Source of the DNA: Blastocatellia bacterium
GTDB lineage: Bacteria > Acidobacteriota > Blastocatellia > Chloracidobacteriales > Chloracidobacteriaceae
DNA: 64,000 nucleotides
Assembly: GCA_019695185.1 (NCBI GenBank)
Contig: JAIBAN010000002.1
Location: 1-64,000, forward strand
Direction of reading: 5' to 3'
Part shown: in pieces, positions 3,281 through 35,219 of the stretch
Layout of the letters: each line of letters opens with the position of its first letter
Position numbering within the stretch: the stretch's first letter is position 1
Notes under the pieces: generated by a model
Databases searched by the model: none
What the model saw: only the letters and a program-made list of their open reading frames with translations
Told to the model about the DNA's origin: nothing
Translations under genes and position numbers: made by a program

Positions 3281-3508
3281 CTAATTCATCGAACAAGCAC
3301 CCGGCCCACGGGGATCCCCACAGGTGCCACAGGGTCTCAAGGGTTGGCTGGTTGCGACGGTTTTTCCGCCTGAGGAAACTGCAAACACAGAAAGCGTCTG
3401 GGTCAGGTTTTTCCCACTGCAGGACGGGCATTCTGGCTGTCTTTCACCAAACACCAACGCTTCGAAATGCCTTCCGCAGTCACTGCAATCATATTCGTAA
3501 ATGGGCAT
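3281..3508 (-). CDS. FmdB-family zinc-ribbon protein
   Basis: This 75-residue protein opens with MPIYEYDCSDCGRHFEALV and has a second CPSC pair near residue 32, the standard FmdB/CxxC_CxxC_SSSS regulatory zinc ribbon. The tail contains another CGTC and a GACS motif rich in Gly and Pro, as often seen in this family. AAAGGAG lies 8 bases before the ATG. The family is named after a putative regulator of formamidase or amidase genes, but most members have no assigned role. It sits immediately downstream of the caspase-like gene (18 bp gap), so the two are probably co-transcribed. Confidence 0.88.
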   Translation of the reverse strand: MPIYEYDCSDCGRHFEALVFGERQPECPSCSGKNLTQTLSVFAVSSGGKTVATSQPLRPCGTCGDPRGPGACSMN

Positions 3509-3526: not shown

Positions 3527-4720
3527 TTACCTTATATTCAGCGGTTCCCCGATTGGACGAATCCGCCGGGGTGGGATCCACTCGTCCCACTCAACCGAAT
3601 ATCCAGTATAGTGGATGAAAAAACCATTTCCGGCTACCTTCAAAACCGAAGCGGCATACCAACTCCCCTGCCATTCCACCAAAACGTTCTGCCCAACCCG
3701 GTATGGTTGTTCGGGTGCGGGATCAATCTCCGCAGGATCCAACCAGACATCCAGTTTCCTTGCCTTCCCCAAAAAATGAAGCCTCAAGAAGGATCCCGAG
3801 CTGGCAGTAATCCGTGCCAGAGGCAGAATTTTCTTTTGCTTCACACTCACAAAATCACCAATCCGGGAAGTGCTCTTCGGAAATGCTGTGGCAAGATTGA
3901 TCCCCATTGAAAATTTTGCAGTTGCAGCAAAGAGTGCCTCTTGACCTTCGGCCAGAACCATGACCTTCTGGACAGTTTGCACCAACTCAGGCAGTGAAAC
4001 TACCTTGTTCCCATCCACATCTGCCCAACATTCACCGCAAAGTGCATCCAAGAGAGCCTCGGAAAATGTCCAATTTTCAGTGGAATTACCCGTTTCCGTA
4101 GTTGAAGTCAGACCAGCTATTGCAATTTTGGAATTCAACTTCTCAATTTCCTTTACAATGCTACCCGAATCACAACAGTCCGCAGTTACCAATGCCTGCC
4201 ATTCAGTGGCATGTTTGCCAACTGCTTCGATCAAGCCGTGAACTGACCAGCCTTTATTCGACTGTGTCGTATCATAGCTGATCAATCGAACATCCTGCCC
4301 ATCTCTTCTCCCGTGCCCACAATAATAAACAAAAACAAAATCCCCAGGGGCAGGCCGTGTTAGAAACTGCTCAAATTCAGTCTCAATCACCTCTGTTGTG
4401 GCAACCTGGTCCTGTAAGTAAACAATATGATCGGAGGGCACTCCTTGATGGGAAAAAAAATCCACCAGATCAGCATCCCGCCGTTCATCTTTCGGAAATG
4501 AAGGGAACGACTTTTGGTCCTGCCATTCCAATATACCAACCACAAACACCCAGGTTTTGGCTGGATTCAAAAGCAAGACCTGCGGTGGGGGCCGATGTGC
4601 CATGACGTGGACCAATAACAAAACACCACACAATCCCACCAAAAGCATCAACTTCCGGTCAACAAAAGGCAAGCGCGACATGAAATCACTCACTGGATAA
4701 AGGGAGATCTGCTCGGCCAC
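3527..4720 (-). CDS. Membrane-anchored caspase-like protease (peptidase C14) with two C-terminal SH3/Tudor-knot-like modules
   Basis: This 397-residue protein has one transmembrane segment (about 24-41) and then a caspase/metacaspase-like fold. FVFVYYCGHGRRDG carries the catalytic His136, and VTADCCDSGS matches the D-x-C-x-S-G motif with Cys183 as the likely nucleophile. Two small barrels follow. Residues 286-332 (GDFVSVKQ..ARI....WLDPAEIDP) and 338-390 (GQNVLVEWQGSWYAASVLKV..HYTGYSVEWDEWIPP) have the aromatic pattern of Tudor-knot/chromo-barrel or agenet-like SH3 folds. The start is a GTG preceded by GGGAG at 6 bases; an internal ATG at 4681 is the alternative. It is divergent from tRNA-Phe. 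The caspase fold is clear, the barrel assignment rests on motif resemblance, and the substrate is unknown. Confidence 0.85.
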   Translation of the reverse strand: MAEQISLYPVSDFMSRLPFVDRKLMLLVGLCGVLLLVHVMAHRPPPQVLLLNPAKTWVFVVGILEWQDQKSFPSFPKDERRDADLVDFFSHQGVPSDHIVYLQDQVATTEVIETEFEQFLTRPAPGDFVFVYYCGHGRRDGQDVRLISYDTTQSNKGWSVHGLIEAVGKHATEWQALVTADCCDSGSIVKEIEKLNSKIAIAGLTSTTETGNSTENWTFSEALLDALCGECWADVDGNKVVSLPELVQTVQKVMVLAEGQEALFAATAKFSMGINLATAFPKSTSRIGDFVSVKQKKILPLARITASSGSFLRLHFLGKARKLDVWLDPAEIDPAPEQPYRVGQNVLVEWQGSWYAASVLKVAGNGFFIHYTGYSVEWDEWIPPRRIRPIGEPLNIR

Positions 4721-24413: not shown

Positions 24414-27400
24414 TCACAAATTCAAGGTAAAAACATTCGAGGCCACCCCATTCACAGTCACCGAAACCTGATTGGCTCCCGCCTTGAGTTTGAGTTTTTT
24501 CTCCTTGCCTTTCAGGGTGATGACAGTGGCCGTTTGGGTTTTGATAAATTGGCTGACATCCGAACCGTTGATTTTGACCTGAGCCCCTGAGCTACCAAAG
24601 CCGGTCCCGTTAATGGTCAGGTTGGGGCTGGTAAAGACAGCATTGGAAATCATGGGCCCGCCTTGGTTTGGCTGGATTGTCACAGCAAACGAAGTGGTTG
24701 CCGTCAGTCCGCCGACATCAGTCACTTGTACAATCACCCGACCACTTTGTGTTTCAGTCCCTCCTGGGGCAATTCGAATGGTGCCGATTCCGCTGCCTTG
24801 GTCTGACAAAGTGACATAACCTGGGTTTGAAACCAAAGAAAGCTTCAAACCGGCGTTTCCATCCGGGTCAGTTGCTTTAACCTCAAGCGTTTTGGCTTCC
24901 CCGGCAGCCAGGGTCTGATCCGCAATGGCAGCCAGCACGGGTGGCTGGTTTCCCGAACCAATCGTAACGATAAAACCGGTTTGCCCAGTCAACCCGCCAG
25001 GGTCTGTCACCACCACGGCCACGGCTCCACCTTTGGTTTCTCCGATGCCTGGAGCCAAGCGAAGCATTCCGCTTCCGTTGCCGTTATCGCTCAAGGTCAC
25101 ATAAGGCAACACTGTTTGCAGCGATAAACGTAACCCTTCGTTTCCATTTGGGTCAGCGGCAGCAATGGGTAAGGAGCGAACTTCCCCTGGTTTTACGGTT
25201 TGGTCGGGAATGGATGCCAAAGTTGGTCCCACGTTGGAGGAAACAACCCGCAAAAGCACCGTTTTGCTCTGGGTGACGGTCCCGGCGGTCCCGGTTACTG
25301 CAAGGGAAAGAGTTGAAGTGGGGATACTGGCTGGCGTACTCACCATTACAGTGGCCGATTGTCCTGGATTGACAGAATCGGAGGCAATTGAGATGGCAAT
25401 CCGAGGGTTGGGCGGGCTGACAACGGCGCTCAGGCCAACACTTTGATTAAATCCGTTGACGCTTTGCACCGAAACGGAAAAACTGGTTGATTCGCCGGAA
25501 CGAATGGTTTGTGTAAGCGGGTTCACCGCAAGAGAAAAGGCTGAAAGCGGTGCGGTTTGGGAATATCCTTTGACAACCCGAATGGCGTTATTGAAGCCAG
25601 CAGCAATGAGTAAATTCCCATTGCGGTCAAGTGCAACCCCTTGCGGGAAAGAAAGTGCTGCTTGAATTGCCTCGTTACCATCTCCCGAAAATCCGCCAAC
25701 ACCGGTTCCCGCCACAGTTGTTATGATTCTTGAGTTGAGATTGACTTGGCGAATTCGATGATTACCGGTGTCTGCAATCAACAAATTCCCTACTGAATCA
25801 ATCAAAAGGCCGTTGGGAAAATTCAATGAAGCTCTGATTGCCTCACCACCATCACCGGAATCACCTGGAGTTCCAGTTCCAGCTACAGTGGTGACGAGTT
25901 TGGTCACCGCATCCACTCGGCGGACCCGATGTCCGTTAGTGTCAGCTACAAAAAGATTTCCAGCAGCATCAACTGTTACCCCAAACGGCTGATTTAATCT
26001 GACATCCGTAGCTGGAACGTTTTCACCAGTGGCAGCACCACCGCCAACCACTCTGGCAATAATTCCCGTTGTGGCATCAATCCGGCGAACTCGGTCATTG
26101 GCTGTGTCACAAATAAAAATATTTCCGTTGGAATCAACTGTCACAGCAGTTGGAAAATTCAATCGCGCCTGAGTTGCAGGGCCATCATCTCCGAGCGCCC
26201 CAATGGCACCGGTTCCGGCAATCGTCGAAAGCACACCAGTGCTTTTATTAACCAAACGAATACGGTTGGTTTGAGCTTCACCAATCAAGAGATTTCCATC
26301 CTTATCAAAAGCAAGGCCATAAGGAATAGTAAACGGAGCAGAAGTTGCCTCACCTCCATTTCCACTAACTCCAAAGTTTCCGTTTCCCACAACGGTTGAA
26401 ATCTCCCCGCCTGAACTGATTCGGCGGACCCTAAGGTTTGAATAATCACCAAAGAAGGTATTTCCATTTTGATCGGTCAGAACGCTGAACGGATTGGCTA
26501 CCTCTGAATTGATCGCCGGTCCGCTATCGCCAAGAAACCGGATGGTACCTGCAAAAGTCGAAATTGTTTGTGAATTTACAGCTATTCTGCGAATCCGATG
26601 ATTGAACTGATCCGCCACAAAAATGTTACCGCTGCCATCCACTCCAACACCGGTTGGTTGATTCAACACACCAGCAGTCGCACTTCCACCATCGCCGCCA
26701 AATCCAAAGGTTCCATTTCCTGCTATACGTATCAAGTTCTGGTTGACGAGCTCCAGTCTAAGGAGACTTGAAGTTGACAAATCAGCAATCCATAAATTCC
26801 CGGCTGGGTCCAATGCCAAATCGACTGGTTGCCTTAACAAAGCAGAATTCTCGCCTACCGTCGAAATAGTTCGATCTGTGGCAGTGACCCGTTTAATCTT
26901 TCCGTTAAAACTATCCGCAATATAAATGTTGCCTTGCACATCAACAGCCACCCCACTGGGAATCCGAAGCTGGGCATTTGTGGCAGGGCCTCCCTCCCCG
27001 GAATCTCCTAAGGCTCCAGTTCCAACTATAGTGGTTATAACAGAGGTTACTGCGTCAATTTTGCGGATACGATTGTTGACAGCATCTGCAATCAACATAT
27101 TATTAGCCCCATCAACAGCAATAGCTCGCGGGCTATTCAATTTTGCATTCTTGGCTAAATCCCCATCACCACTAAATCCAAGCACTCCGGTTCCTGCTAT
27201 AGTAATAATTACACCTGTCCGTAAATCAACTCGGCGAATCCGACTGTTGAAGGTGTCGCAAATTAGTAAATCCCCATTTCGATCAATTGTGATACCCAAT
27301 GGATTGTTCAAGGTTGCTGCAACCGCCAAACGTCCGTCGCCGTTGTAACCAGCAGCCCCAGTTCCTGCTACTGTGGTGATAATTCCTGATGTGTCAATTT

Positions 27401-29156
27401 TGCGAATCCGATTATTAAGCACATCTGCTACATAAACATTTCCAACACTATCCACCGCTATGCGTTGAGGGAGTTGAAAATTCGCTGCTGTAGCCGGCCC
27501 GCCATCGCCAAGAAACGGGATTCCGCCGGCAATCGTGGTGATTTCGCCGTTTTGCAGTTCGCTCAAGGGTTTGGGCAAAACCTGGAAGGGGCGTTGGTCG
27601 GTGCCTCCGCGAGTCAGAATGGAAAGAGTGCGATTACCGGGTGCTCCCTGCGGAGGTACGGTAAAACGAATCTGGGTGGCGCTTAAAACCTCGGCATCAA
27701 TCACGAGGTCGTCACCCAGCACAACCTGAGACTCCGGAGCAAAGTTTTTGCCTGTAACGATGACTTCGACATTGCCTTCAAGCGTGCTCGACGCACGGCT
27801 GAGGGAAGCAATCTGTGGTGCGCCGACGGTCACAACCTTGACGGCTTCCGCATCGCTGGTCGCACTCGCGTCAAGCACGAACGCCTGTGTGCCTTCAACC
27901 AACACGCTGGCGGCTTTTCCGAAACTCACAGTCGGTTGGGCCAGCGAGGTGAGTTGCGGAGGCTGGTTGGTGGGAAAGGTCACGACCTGAACACCTGAAG
28001 CATCCACCACATACAGGTTTCCCCGTGTGTCGCTGCTGACCGATTGGGGCGCATTAAAAGTGAAATCGCCTCCGCTTTGATTGGGAGCAAACCGCAACCC
28101 TTTGACCGAAGCCGCGCTGAGGGTGCGGACTTCCCCGCTCCGGCTAATCTGGCGGACAGCATTGTTGCCTGTATCGGCAACATTCAAAATCCGACCGTCG
28201 GCGCTCAGGCTGAGACTGCCGGGCTGTTTGAAGCGGGCTTGTCGGCCCTGGCCGTCGGTTCGGCCTGACTGGCCCGGTTCTCCTGCCAGCAAACGCACTT
28301 CCCGTCGGGCAAAATCGGCATAAAAAATGGCGTGGTTTTCCGTATCCGCAATGAAAAGATTGCCGCCACCATCCACGGCCACGCCCCGTGGCCCGGTAAA
28401 AACCGCTTGTGCAAACGGCGTGGTGTCAGCGGTCATGCGTCCCGGACTGCCTGAACCAAGCAGAGTTGTCACCTGTTCGGTAAAATCTATTTTGCGGATG
28501 CTGTGGTTGGCCGTATCGGCAATGTACACACCGCCTTGAGCACTCGTATCAACCGTGACCGCCGTCGGGGTATTGAACAATGCGTCGGTGACTTTGCCAT
28601 TGGTGCGCCCGGCAACCCCTTTTTTTCCGGCATACTGACGCGCTTCGGAAAGCAGGCTGTCCTTCCGCAAAATGACGCTGCCGGTCGGGTCGCTGATATA
28701 AAATTTTCCGGCTGAGTCCTGCTTCTGGTCACCGGGAACCATGGCTCCCCGACTGCTTTCCACTCGTGCAACAGCCACAAAAATGGAAACCGTATCGGGT
28801 CCGCGTTTGGCTGTGATGGTGGCAAAACCACGCTGCATTCCGCGCACCACTCCGGTCTGAGGATCCACCTGGGCAATGTCCGGGCTGCCGGACTCCCAAG
28901 CGACTCCGGTCACTGGCTGGCCTCCGGCATCAGTCGCGGTGAGGGTAATCTGCTTGGTTTCATTGACAACCGGATTGCGCTCTTTGATGCGCAAGGTTCC
29001 GCTCTGTTGGGGGTTGATGTGGCGGGTATGAAGTGGAAGTTGAAAATCGGGGTTCGTGCGTTGTGCCTGAATGTACCCGAAGGGGAAAAGGGTCTGTAAT
29101 ACAAATCCGGCAAGCAGCCAGACTCCGCAAATGCGAGCACGTGAAATCTGTTTCAT
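24414..29156 (-). CDS. Giant exported NHL-repeat beta-propeller protein with Ig-like and IPT domains
   Basis: This ~1580-residue protein has a signal peptide (GVWLLAGFVLQTLFPFGYIQAQ). A BIG2-type Ig domain (GQPVTGVAWESGSPDIAQV) comes first, then NHL repeats of the form GVAVDGGGNLFIADTENHAI, and an IPT domain near residue 460. About twelve regular ~57-residue NHL units follow (AGTG..G..GDGG.A..A.LN.P..V.VD..GN..IAD..N.RIR), then two cadherin/Ig-like domains (PGEVRSLPIAAADPNGNEGL and a close copy) and a terminal IPT. The ATG at 29156 is preferred over a nearby TTG. NHL arrays bind proteins or carbohydrates; the ligand is unknown. Confidence 0.88.
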   Translation of the reverse strand: MKQISRARICGVWLLAGFVLQTLFPFGYIQAQRTNPDFQLPLHTRHINPQQSGTLRIKERNPVVNETKQITLTATDAGGQPVTGVAWESGSPDIAQVDPQTGVVRGMQRGFATITAKRGPDTVSIFVAVARVESSRGAMVPGDQKQDSAGKFYISDPTGSVILRKDSLLSEARQYAGKKGVAGRTNGKVTDALFNTPTAVTVDTSAQGGVYIADTANHSIRKIDFTEQVTTLLGSGSPGRMTADTTPFAQAVFTGPRGVAVDGGGNLFIADTENHAIFYADFARREVRLLAGEPGQSGRTDGQGRQARFKQPGSLSLSADGRILNVADTGNNAVRQISRSGEVRTLSAASVKGLRFAPNQSGGDFTFNAPQSVSSDTRGNLYVVDASGVQVVTFPTNQPPQLTSLAQPTVSFGKAASVLVEGTQAFVLDASATSDAEAVKVVTVGAPQIASLSRASSTLEGNVEVIVTGKNFAPESQVVLGDDLVIDAEVLSATQIRFTVPPQGAPGNRTLSILTRGGTDQRPFQVLPKPLSELQNGEITTIAGGIPFLGDGGPATAANFQLPQRIAVDSVGNVYVADVLNNRIRKIDTSGIITTVAGTGAAGYNGDGRLAVAATLNNPLGITIDRNGDLLICDTFNSRIRRVDLRTGVIITIAGTGVLGFSGDGDLAKNAKLNSPRAIAVDGANNMLIADAVNNRIRKIDAVTSVITTIVGTGALGDSGEGGPATNAQLRIPSGVAVDVQGNIYIADSFNGKIKRVTATDRTISTVGENSALLRQPVDLALDPAGNLWIADLSTSSLLRLELVNQNLIRIAGNGTFGFGGDGGSATAGVLNQPTGVGVDGSGNIFVADQFNHRIRRIAVNSQTISTFAGTIRFLGDSGPAINSEVANPFSVLTDQNGNTFFGDYSNLRVRRISSGGEISTVVGNGNFGVSGNGGEATSAPFTIPYGLAFDKDGNLLIGEAQTNRIRLVNKSTGVLSTIAGTGAIGALGDDGPATQARLNFPTAVTVDSNGNIFICDTANDRVRRIDATTGIIARVVGGGAATGENVPATDVRLNQPFGVTVDAAGNLFVADTNGHRVRRVDAVTKLVTTVAGTGTPGDSGDGGEAIRASLNFPNGLLIDSVGNLLIADTGNHRIRQVNLNSRIITTVAGTGVGGFSGDGNEAIQAALSFPQGVALDRNGNLLIAAGFNNAIRVVKGYSQTAPLSAFSLAVNPLTQTIRSGESTSFSVSVQSVNGFNQSVGLSAVVSPPNPRIAISIASDSVNPGQSATVMVSTPASIPTSTLSLAVTGTAGTVTQSKTVLLRVVSSNVGPTLASIPDQTVKPGEVRSLPIAAADPNGNEGLRLSLQTVLPYVTLSDNGNGSGMLRLAPGIGETKGGAVAVVVTDPGGLTGQTGFIVTIGSGNQPPVLAAIADQTLAAGEAKTLEVKATDPDGNAGLKLSLVSNPGYVTLSDQGSGIGTIRIAPGGTETQSGRVIVQVTDVGGLTATTSFAVTIQPNQGGPMISNAVFTSPNLTINGTGFGSSGAQVKINGSDVSQFIKTQTATVITLKGKEKKLKLKAGANQVSVTVNGVASNVFTLNL

Positions 29157-29497
29157 ATAAACCAAACTCCGGCCTGATATGTCGTTCCAAGAATATGTTG
29201 CGGGTTAAAAGTTGAAACTGAATCAACATTGCCAGAAGCCAAAATAAAATTGTCACCGGCACCTTTTGATTAAAGCCAAGGAGCAGGTGTGCCTTGCTCA
29301 AACAAGACAGCAATCCACATTAAAATAGATTTGGTGAAAACCGTTGGGCACGCACGCGGGAAGAAGAAGGATGCCCCTAAAAGTGGTTTTACATGCCCTT
29401 GGTATCCCTTTTATCAGGGAAAAAATTGTTGTACGGGGTTTCCTGCTTTTATGAGAGTGGATTTTTACAGCAATCTCTGAATGATGTCCATAAGGAA

Positions 29498-29674: not shown

Positions 29675-32600
29675 TTATTCCTTCGTGATTGAACCGGCCC
29701 GCACCAGTGAATAGACATCCTCACTGCCGCTCCGGGTGTCGGTCCACACCAACAGCAGATTCCGGTCAAGGGTGGTCAAGCCGATGCGGGAGCCAAGATT
29801 GGCTGAGAAATCCCGTTTCGGGTTGGATTTCGAGGTATTGGAAGGAACCGTGGTCACTCGCTCGTTGCGGCTGAAGCTCTTGCCTCCATCCACCGAGGAA
29901 GTAACGTACACATCCACCGTCTGCCGGGATGGGTTTTGCCGGGTATCATAAAAACTGAGATAGACCGTACTTCTGCCGTCGACAGCCAAGGTCGGGTGGA
30001 ACTGGTCTGCCAAGACCGTATCATCATTGACAATGCGGGGAGCGGACCAGGATTTTCCACCATCACTTGTGCTCGTGAAAAACACATCCAGGTTCTTTCC
30101 GACTCCGGTAAAGGCGGCATAGACGATGCCTTCCTTGTTCGGGTCAGGTACCAGCGACAGGTTGGCCCCCACCGCCTTTTCGGGCATTGAGGGCAACTTG
30201 ACGCCCAAGCCCAATCCGGTGGCTCCGAGAGGAATCGGCGTGCCATAGGTAAGTCCGTTGGAACTGCTGGCCACCAATACCTGTCCGGTTGACTGGTTTT
30301 TCCCATCCCACTCGTTCCAGCCCGCCAACACGGTGCCTCCCGGCGTAATGGCCAAGGTCGGGTGCGACACGAATCCCTGACGCAAGGTGGTACGAGGCAG
30401 GTCCGGCCCAAAGGCACGGGCGACGATGATACTGGATGTGTTCTTCAATGGGTTCAGGCTTTCCCAAACCACAAACACCCGTCCATCACCAGCCACGGCA
30501 ACCGTGGGGCGGCTTTCATAGACCACCTGGGTGGCACCATAGCTGCTGAGCACCGTGGTTCCGAAACTCAAACCGTTGGTTGAACGGGCGACCACCACCG
30601 CATTGGCCGAATCGGTCAGATTGGCAACCGTATAGGCAACAAACAATTCCCCGCTCCCACTGTAACTGAGGCTGGGGCTTTGTGCGCTGTAGTAGCTCAC
30701 TCCCTGCACTGTTGCCGGCAAAGTGGTGGTTTGCCAGGAGTTGCCGCCATCATTGGTGGTGCGGATGGAAATTGAACGGCTGGCATAGTCCGTACAGGCG
30801 ACTGCCATTTGCAATGGATTTTTGGGATTGCTGATGGCAACCGGGCTCGATTGCGCGCCATTTCCGCCAATCATCAGGCTTTCCCGGTCAAACGGTGCAT
30901 TGGGAACCACCGTTCCGTCCCGGCCATCCAACACGGCCCCTTTGGGATTGGAAAACTGATTTTGATTCACCACAAATTGATACCGACCAACGAAGTCCGG
31001 TCGCGGCGAATTGTTGGTTGCCGCATACAAGGCGACATCAATCCGGAAAGGCTGGCGGGCTCCGGCAATGCCAACGGTAAAGGTCACCGGATAAGTCTGC
31101 CCGCCTCCCAGGGTTCCCAAGGGAAGGGTTTGCACATCGCCCGGCAAACCGGCCTGGTTGTCAGCGGTAAGCAGGGTGTACGGTTGCCCCGGTGCCAGAT
31201 CAGTGCCGACTTTGGCCAAGGTTTCAACCCGGAAGAACATGGGGCCGTAAAAGGTGCTGCTACCGGTGTTGGTCAAGGTCGTGTTAATCGAGTAATTTCC
31301 CACATAACCAATAGAGGGCAATGCCTCGTAACCGTTGATTCCAACCGTCAGACCGGCATTGGCGCTGACATCAACCAGAACGTTGGTAATGACACTGATG
31401 GAACAGGAACCGGCGGTTACCACTACCCGCCATTTCCCGGAATAAGCCAGAGTTCCCATCACATTGACGGTGGCTCCGGTAAAGTTGTCTCCGTTGGGGG
31501 CCGTCCAATTATAGGTCGCCCCAATCGGTCCGGTGGCGGTCAGAGTCAACGCTTGATTGATGAAAACCGGGCTGTTGGTTGTCACGCTGGCATTGACGGT
31601 ACACATGGCCATCACAAAAACGTCACTCACCGTATTGAGATCACTGGCAATAAAATTCGAGGCAGTGCTTTCAAATCCGACAAACCGTCCATCTGCGCTG
31701 AGATTGAAGGAGGTTGACAATTGATTACCGGAGTCCGTTCCAGGCAGATTGATACTTGCCAACTGAATGGTTCCGGGAGCACCGCCCGGATTCATGTCAC
31801 GCCAAAAAATATCCTGGGAAAAATTGGAATCGGATGCAACCAAATCCGAAGCATTGCTGGTGAAAGCCACATAGCGTCCGTTGCTGCTGAGCATCGGGGT
31901 GTTTGACCCGCTGTCTCCGCCGTTGGTACCACCTGCATTGACACTGACTAACAGAACCGGACCCAAAGCACCGGCTGGGTTAATATCCCGCCAATAAATA
32001 TCACTGTTGAAGTTGGTGTCAGTTGGGTCCAAATCGGTTGCGTCACTTTGGAAACTGACATAACGGCCATCATCACTGATGGCGGCAGCCGAGGAAAAAC
32101 CATTTCCACCACTGGCCAACCGAATGGCTCCCGGCGTTCCACCCGGATTCATATCCCGCCAGAAAACATCGCTCCCGGACCCATTCGGATCCGTGGCGAC
32201 CAAATCGGAGGCGAAACTTTCAAAGGCCACATAGCGCCCGTTGGAACTTGCTTTGGGAAGCATGGCAGCACCGTCTCCACTGGCCGTTCCGCTGGTGTTC
32301 GCGCTCACCAGTTGCGCCGGCAGGGCTGGCCCGCCGGGATTCATATCCCGCCAAAAAACATCGGATTGACCATTGGCATCCCCTGCCGCTATATCACTGC
32401 CCATACTGGCAAACACCACATACCGACCATCGAAACTCAAAACCGGACTGTCGGATGCGTTGTTGGCCGCCCCGGTTAAATCCGACCTGAGACTGACCAC
32501 TCGGCAGGAGGCCGCCAGCATGTCACGCCAAAAAACATCGGATACCCCGCTGTTCAAGTCCTGGGCAATCGGGATTAAGTCAAAGGCATTGCTCACAAAC

Positions 32601-34690
32601 GCAACATACCGGCCATCATCGCTGACCACCGGATTATAGGAGGCATTATTGCCGCCGCTGGTTCCGGCATCATTGATACTGACCAATTGGACGGCCCCCG
32701 GACTGCCGCCGGGGTTCATGTCCCGCAGGTAAATGTCTCCGGCACCGGTTGTGGGGGTTGTCACCAGATTGGTGGCAGAACTGAAAAAGGCCACATAGCG
32801 CCCGTTCCGGCTGAGTACCGGCAGGGCTGAAGTTCCATTTCCGCTGCCTGTGCCGCTGCTGTTGACACTGACCAAAACAGTCCGACCGGTCTGCAAATCA
32901 CGCCAAAAGATATCACCAAAAGTGTTGGTATCGTTCGCGGTCAGGTCGGTCGCATCACTTTGAAAAACCGCATAACGGCCATCGGAACTGAGCTGAATGC
33001 CACTGGAGCCGGCATTTCCGGTCGCCGAAAACAACGAACCAATCCGAACCGTCAGTAATTGAGTGGTGGAAGTGGCGAAACTCCGTATGAAAACGTCGTT
33101 GGTGCCCACCGTGTCGAAATTCACCAAATCTCCGGCCAAACTGACAAATACAACGGCACTGCCGTCGGCACTGAGGCGTGGAGTGGAGGAACTGCTGTTC
33201 CCACTGGCGGTCACGGCTGCGTTGACCGTCACCAAGACCGACCCCAACACGGTGGTATCACGTCGCAAGACATCGGTTGCCAGATTGGTATCACCTGCGA
33301 CCAGGTTGCTGGCTTCGGTTGTGTAGGCCACATACCGCCCGTCGGAACTGATGGATGGTTCAGTGGAAGCGCCATTCCCGGTCTGGTTGACGCCCGACCG
33401 ACGGCTGACCAAAAGAGTAGAATTCCCCACCACATCCCGGCGAAAGATGTCAGAGGCGCTGTTGCTATCCGTGGCTGTGGTAAGATTGCTGGCATCGCTG
33501 CGAAAAGCCACAAATTGACCGTTCCCGCTGATGCGGGCAGTGTCGGAAATATTGTTTCCGGAAGCTGTATTCGTCGAATTGCGGCTGACCAACCGGCATT
33601 GAGTGGCCCCCATGTCACGCCAAAAGGCATCCGACAGACTATTGCCATCCCCTGTGTCCAAATCCGAAGCATCACTCACAAAAGCGACATACTGGCCCGA
33701 ATCATCAATCGAGGCACTGCTGGAGTTGTTATTGCCACTGCCTGTGAGTCCCGGTATGGCACTGACCAGTTCCGTCGGAGCGGGGCTCCCGCCCGGATTC
33801 ATATCCCGCCGGAATACATCCGAGACAAACCCATTTGTATCATTCAGGGTCAGATTCGAGGCGAAACTTTCAAAAGCCACATACCGGCCATTTCCGCTAA
33901 TGACAGGGCGGTTCGACTGTAAATCGCCCGTATCCGTGCCGGCACTATTGGAACTGACCAAACCAATCGCTCCCGGCGAACCGCCGGGGTTCATGTCCCG
34001 CCAGAAAACATCTTCCGAAAAATTGGAGTCGGAAATGACCAGGTTGCTGGAAAAACTGCTGAAGGCAATAAACCGGCCATTGGAACTGAGGTCCGGGTTC
34101 ATTGAAAATACATCGCCGGTGCTGCCTCCGGCAAAACTTTCACTGACCAACGTGCAGGTTGGCTTCTGCATATCCCGCCAAAAAACATCGCTGCCAAAAT
34201 TGCCGTCCGCATCCGCAGTCAGATTGGTGGCGGCGCTTTCAAACGCCACAAAGCGCCCATCGGCGCTGATGACCGGATTAAAGGAAGCTCCATCCCCGCC
34301 TCCAGTGCCGCCGGAATTGACACTGACCAAGCGGGTGATGCCGGTCATGGTATCGCGCAGAAAAATATCTTCAAATCCATTGGTATCATTCGGCACGAGC
34401 GAGCCCGATACACTTGAAAATACGATATACCGCCCGTCACTGCTGGTGGTACGGCGAGCATTGGGATTCACCCCTCCCGTGGTTCCGGGACCGAACAGCG
34501 TTGGGTCACTGAGCGAAGCGCAGCGCATATCCGCCACGTTCGGATTGAAAACCGGTTTGTGGGAAGGGAGTGGGGTTTCAGAAAAATTCCAGGCCGAAGA
34601 CGAAACTGGACCAAAACAGACCCCCAATCCAAGCAGACAGAAAGTCAACCACCCGATTGAACGAAATGAAATCCGAGAGTGAAAAAACAT
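29675..34690 (-). CDS. Giant exported PD40/TolB-like beta-propeller protein with C-terminal sialidase-like domain
   Basis: This ~1671-residue protein has a signal peptide (SIGWLTFCLLGLGVCFGPVSSSA). Residues ~40-1080 hold about 16 PD40-type units with the core S-x-D/N-G-R-Y-V-A-F-x-S, joined by linkers such as DVFWRDMNPGGSPG. A PKD/Ig-like stretch follows, then a BNR/sialidase-like propeller (TTNDGGNSW, STSDGGKSW, SSVDGGKSF) near the C-terminus. AGGAAG precedes the ATG at 34690; a longer frame from 34891 is rejected. The repeats are similar enough to be visible at the DNA level. A surface or secreted binding function is inferred. Confidence 0.87.
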   Translation of the reverse strand: MFFHSRISFRSIGWLTFCLLGLGVCFGPVSSSAWNFSETPLPSHKPVFNPNVADMRCASLSDPTLFGPGTTGGVNPNARRTTSSDGRYIVFSSVSGSLVPNDTNGFEDIFLRDTMTGITRLVSVNSGGTGGGDGASFNPVISADGRFVAFESAATNLTADADGNFGSDVFWRDMQKPTCTLVSESFAGGSTGDVFSMNPDLSSNGRFIAFSSFSSNLVISDSNFSEDVFWRDMNPGGSPGAIGLVSSNSAGTDTGDLQSNRPVISGNGRYVAFESFASNLTLNDTNGFVSDVFRRDMNPGGSPAPTELVSAIPGLTGSGNNNSSSASIDDSGQYVAFVSDASDLDTGDGNSLSDAFWRDMGATQCRLVSRNSTNTASGNNISDTARISGNGQFVAFRSDASNLTTATDSNSASDIFRRDVVGNSTLLVSRRSGVNQTGNGASTEPSISSDGRYVAYTTEASNLVAGDTNLATDVLRRDTTVLGSVLVTVNAAVTASGNSSSSTPRLSADGSAVVFVSLAGDLVNFDTVGTNDVFIRSFATSTTQLLTVRIGSLFSATGNAGSSGIQLSSDGRYAVFQSDATDLTANDTNTFGDIFWRDLQTGRTVLVSVNSSGTGSGNGTSALPVLSRNGRYVAFFSSATNLVTTPTTGAGDIYLRDMNPGGSPGAVQLVSINDAGTSGGNNASYNPVVSDDGRYVAFVSNAFDLIPIAQDLNSGVSDVFWRDMLAASCRVVSLRSDLTGAANNASDSPVLSFDGRYVVFASMGSDIAAGDANGQSDVFWRDMNPGGPALPAQLVSANTSGTASGDGAAMLPKASSNGRYVAFESFASDLVATDPNGSGSDVFWRDMNPGGTPGAIRLASGGNGFSSAAAISDDGRYVSFQSDATDLDPTDTNFNSDIYWRDINPAGALGPVLLVSVNAGGTNGGDSGSNTPMLSSNGRYVAFTSNASDLVASDSNFSQDIFWRDMNPGGAPGTIQLASINLPGTDSGNQLSTSFNLSADGRFVGFESTASNFIASDLNTVSDVFVMAMCTVNASVTTNSPVFINQALTLTATGPIGATYNWTAPNGDNFTGATVNVMGTLAYSGKWRVVVTAGSCSISVITNVLVDVSANAGLTVGINGYEALPSIGYVGNYSINTTLTNTGSSTFYGPMFFRVETLAKVGTDLAPGQPYTLLTADNQAGLPGDVQTLPLGTLGGGQTYPVTFTVGIAGARQPFRIDVALYAATNNSPRPDFVGRYQFVVNQNQFSNPKGAVLDGRDGTVVPNAPFDRESLMIGGNGAQSSPVAISNPKNPLQMAVACTDYASRSISIRTTNDGGNSWQTTTLPATVQGVSYYSAQSPSLSYSGSGELFVAYTVANLTDSANAVVVARSTNGLSFGTTVLSSYGATQVVYESRPTVAVAGDGRVFVVWESLNPLKNTSSIIVARAFGPDLPRTTLRQGFVSHPTLAITPGGTVLAGWNEWDGKNQSTGQVLVASSSNGLTYGTPIPLGATGLGLGVKLPSMPEKAVGANLSLVPDPNKEGIVYAAFTGVGKNLDVFFTSTSDGGKSWSAPRIVNDDTVLADQFHPTLAVDGRSTVYLSFYDTRQNPSRQTVDVYVTSSVDGGKSFSRNERVTTVPSNTSKSNPKRDFSANLGSRIGLTTLDRNLLLVWTDTRSGSEDVYSLVRAGSITKE

Positions 34691-35219
34691 AGGGCTTCCT
34701 CGATGTGTTGAGGCGCGCGACCAAGCGGCGCGGCCAAGATACTGAGCGGCGTGCGGTAAAAAACTACACCCAACGGATGCAGTTATAATTAAGATACCTG
34801 GATAGTGATGAAAGGAGGAAAGTCTCCGGATATTACAAAGAGAAGCTGCAAAGAACAATCGGCAACAGGCCAAAAACAGTCGATTCATCAATTATGGCAG
34901 TGGAACCGGTTGTTTTGAACTGGTTTCACAACTTGGGAAAAAGGCTCTCTGACCAGACAGACTGAAGGAAACACCACAGTCACCAGCATTAAGGCGGCAT
35001 GGTGGCTGGGTTCATTCCTGGTTCAAGGCAGGTTTCCTGGAACGAGTTCCAATCCAACCAGCGGTTGAGTCTCTTTTTCATCCTGCCGGGTTTCCAAAAA
35101 CAAAACCGCAATACTTTTCCAAACTTTTTTGACAATGCTACACTCTACTGGACATCTCATTTCCATCATTCAATAAAAATCGCCGCTTAACAGTTCAGTT
35201 TCACGTACTTGGAGGTCGT
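34691..35219. other. Divergent intergenic region, no gene seen
   Basis: This region separates the divergent PD40 and DUF1549 genes. It is AT-rich on the right side, with a TTGACA at about 35129 but no good matching -10 box. The string GGAGGAAAGTCTCCGG near 34814 recalls the RNase P RNA core, but nothing else supports that. No convincing coding frame is present. Confidence 0.5.

Follow-up and report, generated by a model that had tools for sequence, protein, structure and literature searches.

The open reading frame at 3527..4720 on the minus strand of the window, which is the whole 64,000-nucleotide stretch of DNA that was analysed, encodes a protein of 397 residues that starts with an N-terminal export segment, continues as a protease core of caspase fold and ends in two SH3-like barrels. 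The frame opens with a GTG codon, has a GGGAG found by eye on its 5′ side and is supported by a family alignment with 24 other members; all parts of the gene described below lie on the same strand. On balance, we consider it probable that the protein is an exported, barrel-targeted, caspase-fold protease of a kind described in 2018. The sequence-only reading had held that no bacterial caspase with such a tail was described, and that a common known architecture would speak against it. However, exactly this fusion was reported by Kaur, Iyer, Subramanian and Aravind (PMC5906684), who list the secreted fusion of a chromo-like domain with a caspase-like peptidase among the commonest architectures and name planctomycetes, cyanobacteria, bacteroidetes and chloroflexi as hosts; thus, the chromo-barrel caspase architecture is not new. 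The fusions in that account combine a signal peptide, a caspase-like peptidase, tandem chromo-like barrels and an aromatic cage, and the conclusions given there on architecture, secretion and the cage agree with the present analysis. Judged by the same features, the window protein possesses the caspase-like domain, the chromo-like SH3-fold domains and at least a subset of the cage residues, and it differs from the published fusions in its degenerate first barrel and in its host, probably a member of the Acidobacteriota. Three genomes from the family of the window genome encode the FMO bacteriochlorophyll a protein, which fits Chloracidobacterium, a genus assigned by NCBI taxonomy to Acidobacteriota, Blastocatellia; the window genome has no FMO, and a 16S search detected no rRNA in its assembly. 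The main text of Kaur et al. (PMC5906684) makes no mention of acidobacteria, and the literature on orthocaspases with planctomycete architectures yielded nothing further than a 2012 survey (PMC3501461). The local novelties are therefore modest: probably the presence in Acidobacteriota, together with a fast-evolving paralogue whose first barrel has decayed and a sister protein without the catalytic cysteine.

The full protein was modelled with AlphaFold2 using an alignment of 25 proteins as input, which gave a mean pLDDT of 87.4 and a pTM of 0.80; in most blocks, the pLDDT of the two barrels exceeded 90. The predicted caspase-fold core spans residues 54–278 (3887..4561), as delimited by structural alignment and Foldseek. 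The calculated Z score is 20.7 against Arabidopsis metacaspase 9, with 2.5 Å over 208 residues, and about 20 against legumain and caspases (VIA-align on the AlphaFold2 model). Metacaspases, orthocaspases and legumain, all of clan CD, have the core fold and the Cys/His dyad in common with the window protein; the identity is about 10–18%, the comparison covered the fold, and they lack the extra barrels and the EF-hand-like loop. The Peptidase_C14 profile of Pfam (PF00656) scores the window protein at 19.3 bits, under the cut-off of 21.4, which six of eight relatives pass. The alignment, consisting of the window protein and 24 homologues that share its core and carry one or two barrels, places the catalytic histidine at His136 in the motif YYCGHG (4313..4315), invariant in all 25 members, and the catalytic cysteine at Cys183 in ADCCDSG (4172..4174), kept in 24 of the 25. 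The dyad conservation and these structural matches bear out the His136/Cys183 caspase core that had been proposed from the sequence, and this dyad would cut peptide bonds. The one exception, L011 (1531–2613, plus strand, of genome G259, from the same order as the window genome), carries LDSPRSS in place of D-x-C-x-S-G and retains a second barrel with a full cage; by its motif it is probably a pseudo-protease.

Within the core, residues 234–245 (DVDGNKVVSLPE; 3986..4021) form an EF-hand-like loop of calcium type. Asp234 and Glu245 of this loop are invariant in all 25 aligned members, and weak EF-hand matches to Pfam occur in relatives of the window protein. The loop may stabilise or gate the core. 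A comparable loop can be read in L003 and L004, two other caspase-like proteins of the window genome, so it is not special to the chromo-barrel caspase family. These two proteins (contigs C3 and C35) lack chromo barrels and carry AGHG/GGHG and DTCHSAG motifs. Two more specific assignments of the core were considered. The NCBIfam profile for EACC1-associated caspases (NF047832) matches all 25 members, with a best E value of 2.9e-23; however, the window protein reaches 48.2 bits against a curated cut-off of 140, which indicates a related core of a different type. The PADLOC defence caspase profile scores 37.9 bits over profile positions 2–139 only of a 453-position model, and the neighbours of the window gene (recJ, fmdB and a tRNA-Phe gene) include no defence gene and give no support to a defence system.

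Since the PDB search with the whole model was filled by matches to the protease core, the C-terminal tail was modelled alone (pLDDT 84.3) and searched separately. The sequence-only reading had assigned the tail to two barrels of Tudor-knot or chromo-barrel type and had named structure prediction with a fold search as the check. SH3-like barrels are indeed present in the model, and the fold holds for both. The second barrel, residues 340–390 (3551..3703), is of MRG15 type. Residues 342–388 match the Tudor-knot family (PF11717) at 33.7 bits against a cut-off of 20.8, and the top PDB match by phmmer is human MRG15 (E value of 3e-5), with further chromo barrels of MRG and Eaf3 proteins ranking next. 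In structural comparison, the second barrel is closest to the chromo domain of MRG15 (2f5k; Z 11.1, 1.6 Å over 60 residues, 33% identity) and to MRG2 (4pl6; Z 10.5, 0.6 Å over 53 residues), after which the list for the tail consists of other Tudor and chromo-barrel readers. Some of the matched MRG15 and MRG2 chromo-barrel structures were solved with methyl-lysine peptides. The second barrel thus has the fold of the MRG15, MRG2 and Eaf3 chromo barrels at 33–36% identity over about 55 residues. Those proteins are eukaryotic nuclear histone readers, whereas the second barrel here is predicted to be exported and is joined to a protease.

The aromatic cage is necessary, yet insufficient, for methyl-lysine binding. 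Its five positions were placed at what we take, from the MRG15 and MRG2 literature, to be the cage residues. All five of these positions are present in the second barrel, where alignment with MRG15 gives Trp350, Tyr355, Tyr371, Tyr374 and Trp378, all aromatic. The second barrels of 29 other members have five aromatic cage positions in 15 cases and four in 12. The first barrel, residues 287–334 (3719..3862), is different: the corresponding residues read Q-P-F-K-L, with one aromatic position of five, whereas the first detected barrel of 38 other proteins has three to five. No Pfam family matches the first barrel of the window protein, which scores 13.4 bits against the family profile for first barrels and has a pLDDT of about 91–93. 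The fold list for the tail barely probes this barrel, so the evidence for its fold comes from the model and the alignment. In the model, the first barrel of the window protein folds but is degenerate. Thus, judging from the cage residues, only the second barrel looks able to bind a ligand in the classical manner. The first barrel would be a worn-out repeat, with a role that is probably structural only.

The hydrophobic export segment covers residues 22–42 (4595..4657), as seen in the sequence, in a model helix at 22–41 and in the signal peptides of most relatives. The sequence-only reading had described it as a transmembrane anchor; the hydrophobic helix is present, but a signal peptide is the likelier assignment. 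By inspection, nearly all relatives start with short, basic, hydrophobic signal peptides that end in small residues and stop just ahead of the conserved start of the core, W-x-P-x-[KR]-TW. In the window protein, a longer N-terminus is followed by LMLLVGLCGVLLLVHVMA and then by HRPPP (by eye), so that a V-x-A site, with its break between VMA and HRPPP, follows the hydrophobic stretch in place of a textbook AxA. An uncleaved helix, from which the protease and the barrels face the periplasm at the inner membrane, agrees with the absence of an AxA motif, with the arginine and lysine ahead of the helix and with a 22-residue extension before it that most relatives lack. We regard such an anchor as rather unlikely, because ordinary, cleavable-looking signal peptides occupy the same site in nearly all relatives and the V-x-A site comes directly after the helix. 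In addition, the 2012 survey of prokaryotic metacaspases warns that single N-terminal helices of this kind may be signal peptides (PMC3501461). The segment is therefore probably a Sec signal peptide rather than an anchor, and Sec would carry the protein across the inner membrane. Under either reading, the basic residues ahead of the helix predict that the protease and the barrels lie outside the cytoplasm; thus, the nucleoid-associated ligand that had been suggested for the barrels is unlikely, judging by these export signals.

A protease exported by Sec would be held by its full-cage second barrel on a peptide or matrix polymer with a cationic, possibly methylated, amino group. This ligand would sit in the periplasm, the cell wall or the extracellular matrix, and the protease would thereby be placed on its substrate. 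A similar arrangement is known from the secreted SH3-domain peptidases of bacteria, which are likewise exported peptidases with small barrels for targeting (PMC5906684). In those enzymes, however, the barrels are classical bacterial SH3 domains that bind peptidoglycan, whereas the barrels of the window protein belong to the chromo-like branch. Alternatively, the barrels may bind nucleic acid of the matrix (extracellular DNA or RNA) and not peptide, as some Tudor-knot domains do. The Tudor-knot is an RNA-binding variant according to Pfam, and Kaur et al. (PMC5906684) allow that bacterial chromo-like domains may have encountered nucleic acids in the matrix. Nevertheless, the second barrels conserve a peptide-reading cage of MRG type, which nucleic-acid binding would not need, and we judge this alternative improbable. 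A more specific form of the peptide-binding proposal is that an MRG-type methyl-lysine reader directs the exported protease to a methylated peptide of the periplasm or matrix, and that the family is a surviving representative of the bacterial ancestry of eukaryotic chromo barrels; this we put forward as a speculative idea, with the odds against it. The chromo-barrel fold is familiar above all from chromatin, and its occurrence on an exported bacterial protease fits the published view that eukaryotic readers arose from bacterial extracellular peptide binders. With 0.6 Å to MRG2 and an intact cage, the second barrel would be a convenient object for testing the binding of methylated amines in bacterial ancestors.

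In the phylum of the window genome, matches at an E value of 1e-8 or better occur in eight of 396 sampled genomes, six of which hold clear members (E value below 1e-40), and all of the strong matches to the barrel profile (E value of 1e-6) in the 396 genomes lie within proteins of this caspase family. Full-length relatives are also present in two named planctomycete MAGs. A profile search for the same architecture, which had been proposed alongside the claim of a novel tail, again tells against that claim: in the class, 35 of 162 genomes match at 1e-15 and about 22 carry full members (E value below 1e-100), and in the phylum of one planctomycete MAG (L015) the family occurs in 23 of 294 genomes. 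Fourteen further proteins from planctomycete-side genomes all have two barrels. No relative of the window protein was found in plasmid records or in viral contigs scanned with the family alignment, and hence nothing hints at a mobile or phage origin.

In the window genome, the chromo-barrel domain was found in two paralogues only, the window gene and L002 (contig C11, 1453–2610, minus strand), which is 39% identical over residues 32–389. In the tree, the window protein is among those on long branches (1.7, where the median is 0.32), which makes its exact position unsure. With this long branch and the loss of the cage in its first barrel, the window copy may be changing or losing its function. 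It has a minor chance of being a decaying or specialised paralogue, with a regulatory or narrowed role, while L002 does the main work. The branch length and the single aromatic cage position of the first barrel agree with such a fate, as does the fact that L002, from the same genome, keeps both barrels. On the other hand, the window copy has kept its reading frame, the dyad, the calcium-type loop and the cage of the second barrel undamaged, as would be expected under selection, and we favour the reading as an exported protease.

An FmdB-type zinc-ribbon gene (3281..3508, minus strand; 75 residues; PF09723, 50.2 bits) begins 18 bases downstream of the caspase stop codon on the same strand. Its co-directional position, stressed in the sequence-only reading, is correct, and cotranscription with the caspase gene is possible. 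However, neither FmdB nor RecJ was found in any fetched flank of the relatives, most of which cover about 1.5 kb; an operon link to FmdB was rejected for this reason, and the gene is probably a chance neighbour. Upstream of the caspase gene, a tRNA-Phe gene lies on the opposite strand. Elsewhere in the window, the minus strand carries four clustered tRNA genes (Thr, Gly, Tyr and Thr) at 149–758 and two very long open reading frames at 24414–29165 and 29675–34891, of 1583 and 1738 residues, respectively.
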